DNA from: Pyxicephalus adspersus
Lineage: Eukaryota; Chordata; Amphibia; Anura; Pyxicephalidae
Assembly (NCBI RefSeq): GCF_032062135.1
Contig: NC_092866.1
Coordinates: forward strand, 22,770,874-22,834,873
Reading direction: 5' to 3'
DNA length: 64,000 nucleotides
The position numbers were made by a program, and so were the translations under genes. Below are positions 10,351 through 18,092 of this stretch, one piece after another (the first letter of the stretch is position 1; each line of letters begins with the position of its first letter). The notes under the pieces are model-generated. The model saw only the letters and a program-made list of their open reading frames with translations, did not search any database and was not told the origin of the DNA.

Positions 10351-13036
10351 AGTTAGTCAGGTCACATGTTCCTAGTGAAAAAAAAAATAGTAAAAAGCGT
10401 GTGATTTTTTTAATTAATGAAAGTTTAATTTTAGGAAATAGAATGAAATTAGAAAGTCAGCTGGGGGTTATTTGCAACATCATTGAGCTAATTAGCATCT
10501 TGATGTTACTATCTACAATAGGTTTTTGTCCCAAGTCAATTGTCACTATCCATGGCTGTGAACTTTTATCTGAAAACTTTCTATCCACAATTTTGTCTCA
10601 TGAAAACCTTAATATAATACACTGAGACACGTTACTATAAAAATGGCACTAATGAAAAAGGAATTTCAGGTATTCATTATCTACACCGATTTAATATGAG
10701 ATCTATGGATTTCTCACCCAGTTACTGTATATTAGTCTAAAGTTCAGTTAGCTGCCTGAAGTACCCTAAGTCTAAAGCTGACTTTATCACAATATTCACC
10801 TTCTGAAAATAGAGTCAGGTGGCAGCCTTGCAAATCGTTGAAACATTTGGTTGATGCTGGAATGTCCAGGAGGCACTAACAGACCTTTAGAATGTGCTTT
10901 AACATGAAAGAGTCAAGCCCAGTCCTTGGGACCAAAAGTTTAATGATGGCCTGTCTTATCCAGATAGAGATGGTGGAATGATAGGCCAAAGTACCCTTAC
11001 AAGGTTCATTCTGCCTGTAAAAAGGAAATCGGTAAGAAAATGAAGGGCTATCATTCTAGTGAACTCCAGCCAGAGGTCTGCCAGAACCAGCCAGACTCCA
11101 GCCAGAACCAATGTCCTAGTTAACAAAAACTAACGTGTATAAAGAGAAAGTACTTGGCCTAAACACAACCATGTCCCTATGCAAAATCAAAAGGATTTGG
11201 CAACAGGCCTAACATTTGCATAAGTCCATCTGACATTAATAATAAATTGTTATTAGGTAACATTGCCAACCGAGCAGTTGGCAGGAGTATTCATGGCAAG
11301 TCATCAGTCACCACTCTTTGAAATTGTGGCGTGGGGATCAACATCACTAAATGACATGAATGACATTGTATTACTTTTTAGGTTAACTTTATTTTCTGAA
11401 AATAATGATAAGAATGTGTTATTATTTTAATAAATCACCTTTTCTGTGGTGTGTGTACTGTTTTTATCTACAATAAACTTTTTGAGGATGGATAAGGGAT
11501 ACTAATAAACTCGTCAACGTATTCCCCTGAAGGGGTTATAGACTAAAAGTACCCTTACTAAAGAAGACTTTCAGATTCTTGGATAACCCTGCTTTAAAAC
11601 CCCCCATATATTATGTGGGGGAATGGATTTAGGGAAATTTGTGTGATGTGAGCTGATTATGGCTGAATGCCTTGTTTACCTGTGAGACCCTGATCATGAA
11701 TTTTAAAGGCATATGTGATGTTTTTTAATTTGGGGAACCCATTATGGAAAACTTCTTAGTAAGCTACTGACAAAAGATGAATTATCAGGAGCAGGGGCTC
11801 ATGAGATCCATACACAATATATAACATTTAGGGTTAACTAGGTAAATAGGTATATAACAATGTTATGAGCATATCTCTTACATGAAGAAAACCTTTGCAT
11901 TACTCAGATCATGACTAAGTCTGGAGGGAGAAAAGCAGTAGAGGAAGGGAGTGAGATAGGAAGGGACATAGGCTTAGAATATTGATGTGGAGATTGGAGA
12001 TTTTGGTGGCAATTAAAATATAATTGAAAGTTCACCAATTACCTTACTCTTGATAATTTTTATCACTCATCTCTTGTGCAATATCGGAACCAATGAGTCA
12101 GCCCACTCTGCAGTACAAAACATATGTGGTAATGTTCTTTTATGTTTTATTAAGAGATGATAACTTTTTATTTATAGCGATCTTTCAAACAAACAAACTC
12201 ATTACAAGGGCATACTCATTGTAATTAGCAGTTGCTTGGTTATTTTGCAAAGATACATGCACTATATTTTTGTTCTTTCATGTTTGTCAGTTAGTCAAAC
12301 ATTCTGAATACAGTTTGCAAGGCATATAATTATATGAAGCAAAATGAGTTTATGAAGGCAAAGTGGTTAATCTCCTCTTCTGCAGATTGTTATACAATCG
12401 TAAAATAACATGCATATGTGCAGATTATTGCCTGAAAGCATAATATTGTTTTATACATGTAATAACATTTTAAATGCATGGATCCTCATATGAAATTAAA
12501 AGAACATGTATTGCTCATTTCATCTAATGTAAAAAGTGTTTGTTTCTCTCCAAAAGACATTATGCAAATGTAGAATTTTACTTAATATTTACCAAGCAGC
12601 TACTGTTTAGATCTGTTGCCAAACGCTCCTATAAAGTTGCAAATGATATCTCTCTTGAAAATATGCTTAAAGTGATATTATAAAGTCAAGCTGTGAGTAT
12701 GGCTGTTGAATGCTTTTCTGGGACAGCTAAGTAGTTGTGTACGTATCATTAGTTTAAAGCAGAGTGGCAGCATAAATTGCAGCAACAAGCAGTTATGTTT
12801 TGGTTACATAAGGCACATCTGGAGAATACAATCTGTTTACAGGATTTATTTAACATGGAAAGATAGTGAAAAAAGGGATTCCCTTTAAAATGCATAATAT
12901 AGTGATGGCAGTGATGAAAATCTTGGAATACAAATTTTTAAAAATGTAGAGTTTAAAAAAGTGTAAATGCTTTTTAACACATCATATTTCATTGTAAAAC
13001 ACTTTATTAATATTACCATTATTTTAATAATAATGT
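10351..13036. other. AT-rich non-coding DNA
   Basis: No gene recognised. 11040-11110 contains a short run of near-duplicated words (cagccagaggt, cagccagactc, cagccagaacc). All open frames are under 80 codons. Confidence 0.5.
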
Positions 13037-13870
13037 TTAATTAAAACATATTACACATCACTGTACGGTAAATAATAAACCTGCATAATAGAAGTACAAC
13101 AATGGCACAGGGGGAGGAGAGGACCTTGCCCTATAGAGTTTACAATCTAAGAGGTGCGGGAGAATAGTACACAATTTGAGGGGGATATGGTGATGGCTAG
13201 GTGACAGATGAATATGGTGAGTTGGTGACAGATAGTTATGCCACAGCAAAAAGGAGGGTTTAAGAACTTTTTTTAATTTGGGGAAAGTAGAGGAAGAGGA
13301 AGGTAAGAGTGGGGGCAACTTTAGTGGGGGTAAGGTTTGGAGCCATGCATGGGAAGAGGTTATGAGTGATGAAGTCATTAGTAGGTCATTGGAGGAGTGG
13401 AGGGGGTTGCCAGGGCTGTATTTGTGTTTCAGTTTAGAAATGTAGATGGAGCAAGATGTGCAAGTGATTTACAAGTAAAGCTTGATAGCTTGAATTTGAC
13501 TTTTGTAAGTCTAGCTGCTAAACTCATGATAGATTGAAGAAGTGAGTCTGGTTAGTGAAATGTCAGAGAAGAGGATGTTACAGGTGAGAGATGATAAAAG
13601 CACAATAGGTCTGGTGGTCTCTGGGGACAGGTGGGGGCATATTTTGGAGATGTTGTACAGATTGAAGTGCCAGGACTTGTTCTGAATGTGGAGAGTGGAG
13701 GAAAGTGCAAATTTAAATGTGACACAAAAGCAAAGTCCCAGTGGCGTGTGCCATATTATTTTGTTAGTAAGAATTAGAAAAATGTCAGGGAGGGCAGAGA
13801 TTTTAAAAGTGAGTGGGAAAGATAATGAATTCTGTTTTATTAAGGTTGAGTTTTAGAAACCTGTCAACCA
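13037..13870 (-). mobile_element. CR1/L2-like LINE remnant, 3' part of ORF2 and tail
   Basis: Minus-strand translation of about 13580-13720 gives STLHIQNKSWHFNLYNISKI followed by CPHLSPETTRPIVLL, a clear relative of the reverse-transcriptase C-terminal segment of CR1/L2-type LINEs. The later conserved residues (the usual RLDYCN-type motif) are decayed. Further 3' (13260-13300) STFPKLKKVLK matches the usual near-C-terminal FKSALKTHL-type segment. The 3' region (13075-13160) carries the tail word agattgtaaactctatag and ends gtacagtgatgtgtaatatg. Stops and indels break the frame, so it is a dead fragment. The 106-codon open frame at 13058-13378 lies inside it. Confidence 0.75.
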
Positions 13871-14157
13871 TCCATGGTAAGAGGACCATGAAGTAGTTTA
13901 AAATACTTTGAGAATAAATACATTAAGCGTCATATTCTGAGGTACAAGACCATTCCATAGGTGTGCAACAAGTCATAGCAAACAATAAGAAATGAAAGCT
14001 GACATTAATTACTTTGCACTCTGCAAATGTTAGATATCTTTCTAGCATTCTAAGTCTGCTGTTTAAATACTTTGAGTCCCTAACTCAAAATAAGTATGCT
14101 AATAAGGACTTCAGACTATGATCTGATTTTATAGGTGTGTACTTTGTTTAAATCAGT

Positions 14158-14938: not shown

Positions 14939-14942
14939 TTAA

Positions 14943-15403
14943 CCTCCGTAGCGGTCTAATTCCCTCAAAATTTCCATGCAAAAAGCGGTAAATTTTTTTG
15001 CATGGAAATGTTTCATTAGAAATTGGAAACTGTTGGATTTTTTCATTGTAGGCTGTAATTCTTAAGCATAACTCACTGATATTTAATAAAGTTAATAAAT
15101 TAATATTAAACTTTAAAAAACAAAACACAAAAATATGTGTATTGAATCTAATACAAAATTATTTGAATTTCCTGCTGCTCTTCCCACCCGCACCAACGCA
15201 TGTACTGACGTCATGGCTGCAGATCGTCGGAGGAGGACGTGTCCCCAGGACCTGCGGGGACCAGGAGGACACCAGGGGACAGTGGCAGAACAAGGTAAAT
15301 GTTTTTCTTTTCAGTTAAAAGTGACCCGGAGTGTGATTTAGGATTACCGCTATTTGCAAGTAAAATCTACGCCGAGTCACACTCAGGATTACCGCTAGGA
15401 GGG
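14943..15403. mobile_element. piggyBac-like MITE, copy 1
   Basis: Flanked by TTAA at 14939-14942 and 15404-15407. Ends are inverted: CCTCCGTAGCGGT on the left and accgctaggaggg on the right. A subterminal hairpin (tttccatgcaaaaa / tttttttgcatggaaa) lies at about 14969-15008. The interior shares words with the element at 42694-43354 (tgtattgaa..aatacaaaat, tttgaatttcctgc, gcaccaacg / gcaccgacg). No transposase is encoded. TTAA target duplication and CCTCC ends are typical of non-autonomous piggyBac derivatives. Short open frames on both strands are not genes. Confidence 0.85.
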
Positions 15404-15572
15404 TTAAGTTCCCAATATAAAGTTTTTTATAGTGTTATGTCTTCATCAAAGTCAGACTACAACAATGCCTTTGAGTATGCTTTTGAATCCTTATTGAAAT
15501 TAATATGAGTTAATAACCTGCTTAGTTCAATATTTCAATAATTGCCTGCCATATCCCCGCAGTATTGTAACA

Positions 15573-16003
15573 ATTTAAAATATGCAGAAAAGAGGGGACT
15601 TAATTGGCACATATAGAAAAAAAAGAATCACAATCTGAACATCAATGTTGCTCATAGATCGGACCATAGTATATCAAATGATTTAACAGCTAACAGTATA
15701 GCATCTCACAATATTAGAGGGTGTCTCGACGCGTTTCACGGTCAATGCCGCTTCATCAGTATAATAACGTTGAGAGATCTAGAATTTAATAATACAATAT
15801 AATATACAATAGCTGTTAAAGCATTTGATATACTATAGTCTGATCTATGAGCAATATTGATGTTCAGATTGTGCTGTCTTGGATGTTAAGAAAAATGGCA
15901 TAATCTTTTATTGGTGTTTTAATATTTTCTAAATAAAAAGTTTTTGTTACTTGATTCTTTATATGTGCTAATTAGGTCCCCTTTTTCTGCATATTTTGAA
16001 ATG
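15573..16003. mobile_element. Long inverted repeat around a hammerhead-like core
   Basis: The left arm (about 15573-15692) and right arm (about 15812-16003) are reverse complements with high similarity, for example aaaatatgcagaaaagaggg against its reverse complement near 15980, and gaacatcaatgttgctcata against its reverse complement near 15865. The right arm carries about 85 extra bases, or the left has lost them. The spacer holds the ribozyme-like motif at 15728-15759. Penelope-like retroelements are known to carry inverted terminal repeats and minimal hammerheads, so this may be a solo terminal structure of such an element. No reverse transcriptase is seen nearby, so that assignment is inference. 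Confidence 0.6.
15728..15759 (-). ncRNA. Hammerhead-ribozyme-like core (minimal type)
   Basis: On the minus strand the order is CTGATGA (15759-15753), a short stem-loop with GCGG and CCGT able to pair (one G-U), then GAAA (15737-15734), then CGCGTC (15733-15728). This is the order of the hammerhead catalytic boxes, with the very short self-complementary helix III (ACGCGT) and GUC cleavage triplet known from minimal hammerheads of Penelope-like and small non-autonomous retroelements. There is one extra A between CTGATGA and helix II. The bases next to the core on the helix I side do not pair well, although pairing reappears further out (atctctca with tgtgagat). It could be an inactive relic, or a conserved motif with another role. 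Activity is not shown. Confidence 0.55.
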
Positions 16004-18092
16004 CTTTTTAATCGAGCAAGGAAACAACAGCATTCATATATAAATCACTGAAATAACAATGTGAATATGATTTTCACCAAACATTCACATTTTAAAGTGC
16101 ACCAGGAAGATGACTTACACTGAATTTTTGTTAAACATCAGAATAACTGCTTTATGGATTCTCCAAAATGTGTTTCTGAACTCGAAAATAAAATAAAGTT
16201 ACTAGTCCTTTGATGTGCCAGTAATATACATTTCTTTTTCAGGTCTTTCACCCTGCTTCCTGTCCTGGGCTGCTCTCCTAATTCTGTCTACAACCCTCTT
16301 ATGTAGTTCACATAATATAGTTAAAAAAAGCAGATTACCCTGTTTAAGTTTTCACTGCGGCCTACAAGAAGTTACAAGGATACCTGATTTCTAGAAAATA
16401 ATTTTTTTATCTCAAATTCATATCTGGAACATGTTGATAATCCTGTTGGAGGTTGCAGCAGGTTTACAGTTCTGAGAAAGATCAAGTATTTTGTTCATTT
16501 ATTTTTGTTAAAACCCATACTGCATACACATGCAAAACTTGTTCTGTATAAGCATATTGAGCCTTGGAAGCTGCAAACAACCCATTAGCAATGAATTATT
16601 ACAAGATCTCTTCTAAACTGTCTAATAATAAAAGTGGAAATCTTGACCTAAACATCATTGCAATTAAATAAAAGTTAAAATAATACATCTTGGTAATATT
16701 GGACAATTGCTAATATTACTACTACTAAATATTCTAATTGTACTAAATTATAATACTCATAATGTACGGAAAAAAAACATTTTGCAAAGGACTGAATGGT
16801 ACACAAATACAAACAATATAAAAGTATTTCATAATTTTATCTTATTTAAAAATTGTATTTGTTATTTTCTTCTGCATTTTTCACAGTCTAGAATATAATC
16901 CGTTTTGACATGCTATCTGAAAAGAAGGTTATCAGGAACAAGGAGTAACTCACCCTTAAGTCATTTCTTTTATATACCTTTAGTGGTGTGGATAGGAACA
17001 GATTTATTTTGGCACTAAAGTACCGAATAGTAATGGTAAGTAATATTGAGAGTTAAGAGTTACACATTCAACTTGCATATCAAATCCTGTTAGGGTGAGC
17101 TCACTTCTATCAGCTGTCAAATTTCATTAAATATATGCCTCAGCCATAGTGCCCAGCTGACTGCAAAGAAAAAACTATACACCCACAATTAGCATTATAA
17201 AATGTGAAATCAACTGGAAGGGATGGCCTGGAGAAAAGCAAAACCCATTGCTAAAAAAAAAATCAGAAGTGCCTTGTGTTTTTCAAAACAATACAGAGAA
17301 AGCAGAGACCAAGAAAATCTATTTTTTTCACTCTCTAAGCTATAATGATCTTGTTTTTAATACCTTTTTTCTTCATAACAAATTTGCATAATGCTTCATG
17401 TGGTTTCAACAGCATCTGTGCTGTTTTCTCATATAACGCAGTGTTGATTTGAAATTAGAGAAGTTCATTCTATTATAAGGTTTGGGTTGTTAAAATATTT
17501 CAAGCAAAAAAGAAAAGTAGCTGACTCTCACCAATTATTTGTATGTTTTGACTGTTTTCAATTTTGTTAAGAAGGAAACGATTTATGCTATATTTTATGG
17601 CAAAAAAATTATATTAAAAAATGGTTTGTTGCAATTATGCATTGTTTATGTATATGTAGTTTCATTTGCAAACTATTTCAAGAAATTGATTCTTTAGCAT
17701 ATATCCTTTAGATGTCTTGAGAGGTCTGTTTCCAATTTGTGTAAAAAAGAAAAATTTATGTCGCAATTTATAGTAACAATTTTTGATGATGACATTTTAT
17801 TTGCAAAGTTAACAATTATGTGCTTTTTAAACCTTAAGCATACAGTCTTTGTTAAGTTTTAGCTAGTGAATGCTAGTGTAAGGAACATCATCTTCAACAA
17901 AGAATTACAAATTTTTTACCCGACTTGAAGCTGCTTTCGTGCATTAATTAAGGTTTCTCCCAGATCCTGTCTGAAAGTTGAATATGAATTTCAATGCGAG
18001 TGCATATCTTTTTTCATCAGGCTAATAGAATATTTCACTTTAGATGGGGGTTATAAAAGGGCCCCAATTGCTAGCATGCTTTTAAAACACTA
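16004..18092. other. AT-rich non-coding DNA
   Basis: No gene recognised. 17280-17960 is AT-rich with octamer-like words (atttgcataatgc) and could hold conserved non-coding sequence, but this is only an impression. Confidence 0.45.

Follow-up and report, generated by a model that had tools for sequence, protein, structure and literature searches.

The minus strand of the window (the whole 64-kb stretch of Pyxicephalus adspersus DNA analysed here) carries what is very probably a minimal type I hammerhead ribozyme in a worn state, situated in the pseudo-LTR, close to the 3' end, of a frog Penelope-like retrotransposon family. The motif belongs to a genome-wide class with covarying helices. The members of its family are insertions bearing inverted arms, and some of them are flanked by clear target duplications that vary in length. 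A sequence-only reading of this DNA had noticed hammerhead boxes in order on the minus strand, including the palindromic ACGCGT, and had taken them for a minimal hammerhead of the Penelope-like kind. The observation is confirmed by the sequence and by pattern controls. The interpretation is supported by covariation, by a class model, by the anatomy of the host family and by a protein frame in one family copy (L006).

The motif and the state of its copy in the window

On the minus strand, positions 15759-15728 read CTGATGA-A-GCGG-CATTGA-CCGT-GAAACGCGTC, a 32-nt motif in which the core letters CUGANGA ... GAAA ... GUH are present in order (Table 1). The corresponding pattern, with two open positions and up to three mismatches, matched once in the 64-kb window and in none of 100 shuffles. 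By analogy with known hammerheads, cleavage would take place between 15728 and 15727, after the GUC. Helix II is intact in this copy, with the pairs G-U, C-G, G-C and G-C and a 6-nt loop. The palindrome ACGCGT in other copies gives no independent support, because it was fixed by the search pattern. A candidate second hammerhead at 17990-18028 of the window was rejected; it reached 15.6 bits and lacked GAAACGCGTC.

Table 1. Features of the hammerhead motif and of the surrounding predicted insertion (window coordinates)
Feature	Position	Strand	Basis
Predicted insertion, 5'-truncated fold-back copy of the Penelope-like family, 511 bp	15490..16000	-	inverted repeats, family comparison, duplications
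Left target-site duplication ATGCTTTTGAATC, 13 bp	15477..15489		12 of 13 match the right copy
Right target-site duplication ATGCTTTTTAATC	16001..16013		duplication search
Forward arm D, following the predicted cleavage site and reaching the 'long' outer end	15490..15727	-	D reference 2-110 and 175-324
Inverted second arm D', 'short' outer end	15810..16000	+	D reference 12-243
Hammerhead core CTGATGA ... GAAACGCGTC	15728..15759	-	sequence, pattern search, covariance model
Helix II (15751-15748 with 15741-15738) and CATTGA loop	15738..15751	-	sequence; pairing across copies
Extra A between CTGATGA and helix II	15752..15752	-	seen in all 100 matches listed out of 518
Palindrome ACGCGT, putative minimal helix III	15729..15734	-	sequence; intermolecular pairing by analogy (excerpts of PMC7761336 and PMC6466107)
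Distal helix I, 5' strand	15765..15778	-	fold
Distal helix I, 3' strand	15703..15716	-	fold; 15712 is A in the window copy, G in the family majority
Helix I closing position, A in the window copy	15760..15760	-	family alignment

The motif sits in the turn of an inverted repeat of about 500 bp, a point absent from the sequence-only reading. Its arms at 15629-15692 and 15810-15873 are 94% complementary over 64 nt, with weaker outer arms beyond. As RNA, a stretch of 481 nt folds far more stably than its shuffles (z -14.4). Folding around the motif had been suggested as a check, and at this scale the outcome was negative, the 111 nt around the motif being no more stable than shuffles (z 0.24). In the window copy and the family majority alike, opening the core and forming helix II costs 3.1 kcal/mol relative to the best fold. 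This counts against the preferred explanation; a gap of this size is also in line with a weak monomer.

Helix I is in poorer condition near the core, where three of five model pairs are non-standard in the window copy. The sequence-only reading had pointed to this weakness, which is partly that of the family, since two of the five core-adjacent pairs are also non-standard in the family majority, and partly the copy's own, as seen in the A beside the core. This A occurs in the window copy only, with C in the 19 others of the 20 aligned family copies; the closing pair is C-G in 15 of them, C with A in four and A with G in the window copy alone. One further copy, L007, was left out of the alignment because of its altered core, which starts CCGATGA, and has T with G at the closing pair.

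The exact core pattern is kept in ten of the 20 aligned copies, the window's included. Of these ten, the window copy scores lowest with the model, at 30.6 bits versus 37.2-42.5 bits for the others; across all family matches, scores run from 15.0 to 44.3 bits. The covariance model behind these scores, R1, was built from 69 dissimilar copies with the window's excluded, and it finds the window motif with an E value of 5.7e-07. A model of sequence alone performs about equally on this copy (28 bits, E 8.2e-08), so structure adds little here (2.6 bits). Structure supports the hammerhead class, and helix I of the window copy is damaged. The copy is worn, yet it keeps core letters that other copies have lost. 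It probably cleaves poorly or not at all. Our confidence in the preferred explanation is slightly lower because four other aligned copies have likewise lost the closing pair and because the sequence-only model scores the window copy equally.

The genome-wide class and the covariation of its helices

The genome searched comprised 1.44 Gb. We found 471 exact matches to the pattern CTGATGAAGN{8,20}GAAACGCGTC, and 518 when the AAG requirement was dropped, versus none for the reversed pattern in either case; a chance match was rejected on these grounds. From each search, 100 matches were listed, namely the first on contigs C1 and C2, which do not form a random sample. From the 100 listed of the 471 we fetched 91 places (30 loci, and 61 places in 60 further loci, L052 holding two), and L009 covers one more of the 100.

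In the canonical hammerhead, helix II begins directly after CUGANGA, with no extra base. Among the 518 matches, an A directly follows CTGATGA in all 100 that were listed, and AAG in 94 of these 100. The extra A is a departure from the canonical Rfam-type hammerhead. The sequence-only reading had counted it as a weak point, but every match listed has it; within that scope it is therefore a fixed feature of the class, not a flaw of the window copy.

The Rfam hammerhead covariance models, to which the same reading had referred for confirmation, gave no hammerhead match at gathering score in the whole window. At E<=10, no hammerhead was reported in 15500-16050, nor in 20 other core loci. Matches to microRNAs and other weak Rfam matches in the window region and at other core loci were rejected, since all of them were below gathering scores. 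A scan of viral contigs gave no matches. A core start codon driving a long frame was likewise rejected: in 101 cores, the longest frame ending in a stop had 46 aa, with a median of 11. In L089, whose locus measures 341 bp, the core frame is still open after 61 codons, where the locus ends.

Compensatory changes in helices I and II, which the sequence-only reading had proposed to look for among genomic copies, are present. From the 101 cores, 31 that were at least 80% alike to a kept one were removed, leaving 70 dissimilar copies (alignment A1), in which the core letters are invariant by construction, being fixed by the search pattern. Over ten pairs, 77.2% of the cells were paired, versus 34-47.2% when the 3' side was slid. 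The covariation score was 0.519, versus at most 0.228 for slid and 0.227 for shuffled alignments, and cells changed on both sides numbered 165, versus a shuffled mean of 74.8; neither value was reached in any of 500 shuffles. Two of the five covariation measures barely exceed the shuffles and count against the preferred explanation. These are the pairs with a change on both sides (9 versus 8.2 shuffled, reached in 146 of 500) and the further pair types (36 versus 31.7 shuffled, reached in 14 of 500).

Position by position, we compared pairing with a partner-swapped control. In helix I, positions 2-5 were paired in 84, 73, 69 and 59% of the copies versus 46, 45, 46 and 39% in the control, position 1 in 77% versus 64%, and positions 6-8 in 29, 40 and 50% versus 38, 39 and 40%. 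In helix II, position 3 was paired in 83% versus 41%, and positions 4 and 5 in 71 and 77% versus 57 and 58%; positions 1 and 2 equal the control (93 versus 93%, 87 versus 85%), and their letters hardly vary. Helices I and II of the class sit at hammerhead positions and covary. RNAalifold did not recover the hammerhead from A1 and predicted a different helix between invariant core letters. This outcome also counts against the preferred explanation, although the letters of that helix cannot discriminate, as they were fixed by the search pattern.

It is conceivable that the hammerhead letters reflect chance or shared ancestry alone, with no selection for RNA structure. The poor helix I near the core of the window copy and the small gain in bits from structure would agree with this idea, which nevertheless strikes us as extremely unlikely in view of the 518 matches versus none in the control and of an excess of both-sides-changed cells that no shuffle reached.

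Anatomy of the insertions

With 15690-15800 as query, we found at least 42 matches in the genome (40 of 152 candidates were scored). In oriented copies of the resulting family, a variable upstream part U is followed by the core and then by a downstream arm D of at most about 330 nt. An inverted arm D' is often present upstream, and its inner end differs between copies. The arm D of the window copy lacks an internal stretch that other copies have.

Placed on the D arm of L019, the outer ends fall into two groups, at 223-248 and at 324-327 (344 in L035). Both arms are present in 10 of 21 family loci, and in each of these ten one outer end is longer than the other; in none of them are both ends long or both short. 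Nine of the ten have one end per group, while the tenth, L016, has one long end and the other at 201. The arms differ in length by 79-126 nt, values that are approximate because the ends are those of local BLAST alignments against a single copy (L019).

For the duplication test, copy ends were set by hand from the family comparison and the sequence. The 13-bp duplication around the window copy, with one mismatch, scores 9, a value reached or exceeded by 5% of 380 swapped-flank controls, and is for this reason marginal on its own. The duplications of L003 and L008 are at the same level. Those of L005 (17 bp), L010 (14 bp) and L016 (11 bp) score above all 380 controls, whose maximum was 10. Fourteen of the 20 copies show no outstanding target duplication in the swapped-flank test; L006 among them shows one over a longer stretch, and the 13 further copies show none.

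About 80 bp to the left of the insertion, the window contains a TTAA-flanked element at 14939-15407 with the inverted ends TTAACCTCCGTAGCGGT ... ACCGCTAGGAGGGTTAA, which we take to resemble a piggyBac-type MITE. A strong local GC skew (0.28) was observed in a G-rich stretch at 12001-14000.

Inverted repeats straddling the core within 1 kb were found at 9 of 30 core loci (one of them, L035, from the window's own family), versus 3 of 108 random window points. Direct repeats straddled the core within the same distance at 1 of 30 loci, versus 5 of 108 random points; the flanks were short. In L052 a second, identical core lies about 600 bp from the first and faces the opposite way, giving a two-headed fold-back version. 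At L037, L043 and L044, which belong to other core families, the flanks are near-continuous palindromes through the core, and helix I could span tens to hundreds of bp.

These inverted repeats, together with the long inverted arms in the window, would also be expected if the element were a fold-back DNA transposon (MITE) whose ends, long terminal inverted repeats, include the hammerhead-like letters. We hold this to be very unlikely, since the clear duplications vary from 11 to 17 bp, inner and outer ends differ between copies, helices I and II covary across families, and one copy encloses a GIY-YIG-like frame. For the same variation in ends and duplications, a DNA transposon with terminal inverted repeats was rejected.

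Searching the genome for the Pfam GIY-YIG domain yielded three matches. The L111/L113 frame is a clear GIY-YIG domain (1.5e-10, Pfam); at L113:3452-3988 (plus strand, contig C3) it forms an uninterrupted frame of 179 aa, which we read as being of Penelope style. The 5.2 kb fetched for L113 showed no visible reverse transcriptase and no AAACGCGT hammerhead core. In tblastn, the L111/L113 frame matched the start of the family copy L006 (E 1.4e-05). When L006 was extended upstream, we found a degraded GIY-YIG-like frame on the same strand, which ends about 1.2 kb before the hammerhead, and the inverted D' arm lies further out than this frame. An exact duplication of 16 bp (shuffle maximum 11 in 200 shuffles) brackets the whole stretch, which begins with the D' arm and finishes where D ends. 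Hammerhead and GIY-YIG-like frame therefore appear to lie in one insertion, unless the frame came by a later nested insertion.

The L006 fragment has one stop and frame changes. Pfam recognized no GIY-YIG domain in two pieces of it (one weak match below the cut-off to an unrelated family for one piece, none for the other), and a homologue search with one piece found no relatives. Against the L113 frame, one piece gave a weak match (31% over 55 residues, E 2e-04) and the other none. L004 shares 1187 bp with L006 at 83%, upstream of and through the hammerhead, the frame not being included. No reverse transcriptase was seen, and Pfam found nothing in two frames of the window. By protein, a weak match in one copy, L006, suggests the link to PLEs, and the anatomy of the family points to carriage by a Penelope-like element.

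These data also bear on another possible origin, a metazoan non-LTR retrozyme. In this case a small tandem repeat, non-autonomous and equipped with a type I hammerhead, would spread as circular RNA with PLE enzymes supplied in trans; a circular junction would be expected at GAGACACC. Apart from a partial tandem in L013, no tandem units were seen at family copies, and retrozyme-type units of about 150-300 bp with hammerheads were not found there. The family does have a type I hammerhead and is short and apparently non-coding, and retrozymes are known in amphibians (excerpts of PMC7229834). We nonetheless consider this origin very unlikely. Direct repeats straddle the core no more often than they do the control points, and of the two copies that share 1187 bp from upstream through the hammerhead, one reaches the GIY-YIG-like frame. 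The retrozyme hammerheads of the axolotl are described, in the same excerpts, with tertiary contacts between loops 1 and 2 (PMC7229834).

Relation to known elements and a possible replication cycle

We compared the frog family with published systems, each paper being represented by excerpts. Metazoan genomes contain thousands of minimal type I hammerheads without helix III, some of them located in the pLTRs of PLEs, and the role of Penelope hammerheads has been called a mystery (PMC7761336). Such minimal hammerheads may cleave via dimers (PMC7761336, PMC6466107). For those of PLEs, Cervera and de la Pena 2014 and Luense et al. 2017 are cited in PMC7761336, PMC6466107 and PMC10085705. Compared via these citing papers alone, the frog motif agrees with them in the core, the near-absent helix III with its palindrome, the large dispersed numbers and the Penelope-like anatomy, and differs by the extra A in all frog matches listed.

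In Anolis, the PAc enzyme of a Poseidon element cleaves the two target strands and extends each of them; its copying begins at an internal site of the RNA, and in vitro it does not depend on hammerhead cleavage (PMC11167929). Common features are a hammerhead at the pLTR/ORF boundary, insertions that start downstream and, in the mechanism that we propose below for the frog family, cutting and extension of both target strands. The PAc frame starts within the ribozyme (PMC11167929), whereas in the frog those frames that open at the core ATG and end in a stop have at most the 46 aa given above.

Penelope elements of Adineta vaga have target duplications and inverted pLTRs, one of which may carry a 'tail' (PMC3846280). 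All of these features, as well as 5' truncation, are shared with the frog family. The tail there measures 31 bp (PMC3846280), in contrast to the 79-126 nt between the frog arms, and the word hammerhead is absent from the excerpted text. Amphibian satellites and retrozymes contain type I hammerheads (PMC7229834) that resemble the frog motif in their weak helix III and amphibian hosts and are described as active as dimers. They differ in being located in tandem repeats and having loop-loop contacts, whereas the frog's are dispersed and have the extra A.

If the family replicates in the way of a Penelope-like element, two motifs in the element RNA would pair through ACGCGU, and a cut after the GUC would free an RNA starting with GAGACACC. 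The element's enzymes would copy this RNA into a new site, beginning from its 3' region, and an early stop of copying would result in 5' truncation. The second, inverted arm could be made by extension of the other target strand or by snap-back priming; the unequal outer ends lead us to lean towards the second target strand as the origin of D'. Copying and the addition of the second arm would together give the hairpin of the window. The window copy would then be an insertion that began downstream of the ribozyme, was truncated at its 5' end and received a second inverted arm.

A further idea is put forward only tentatively, and we are more inclined to doubt it than to accept it. The frog Penelope hammerheads may be a distinct core variant with an obligatory A between the catalytic A9 and helix II, with cores CUGAUGAA. 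This core, mostly AUGAAG, may once have served as the start codon of the element, and the class would be missed by Rfam. The combination of one long and one short arm may reflect priming at two sites of the same RNA, spaced by roughly 80-120 nt and each used for a different target strand; extension of both strands by the PAc enzyme would predict such a pattern.

Literature searches on hammerheads with Xenopus tropicalis, on Penelope and frogs, or on Pyxicephalus adspersus found no title or abstract on this family; Cervera 2014 and Luense 2017 fall outside that scope. The Penelope-associated minimal hammerhead is a known kind of ribozyme, the window copy is a member of it, and the novelty is modest. 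Taken alone, the window copy is of little weight. The points for the specialist are the extra A and the blindness of Rfam to the class, with none of the 20 other core loci recognized as a hammerhead. With hundreds of matches, covarying stems in those compared and some clear insertion ends, the frog class provides a natural data set for examining whether ribozyme, tail and inverted arm are parts of a single replication cycle.
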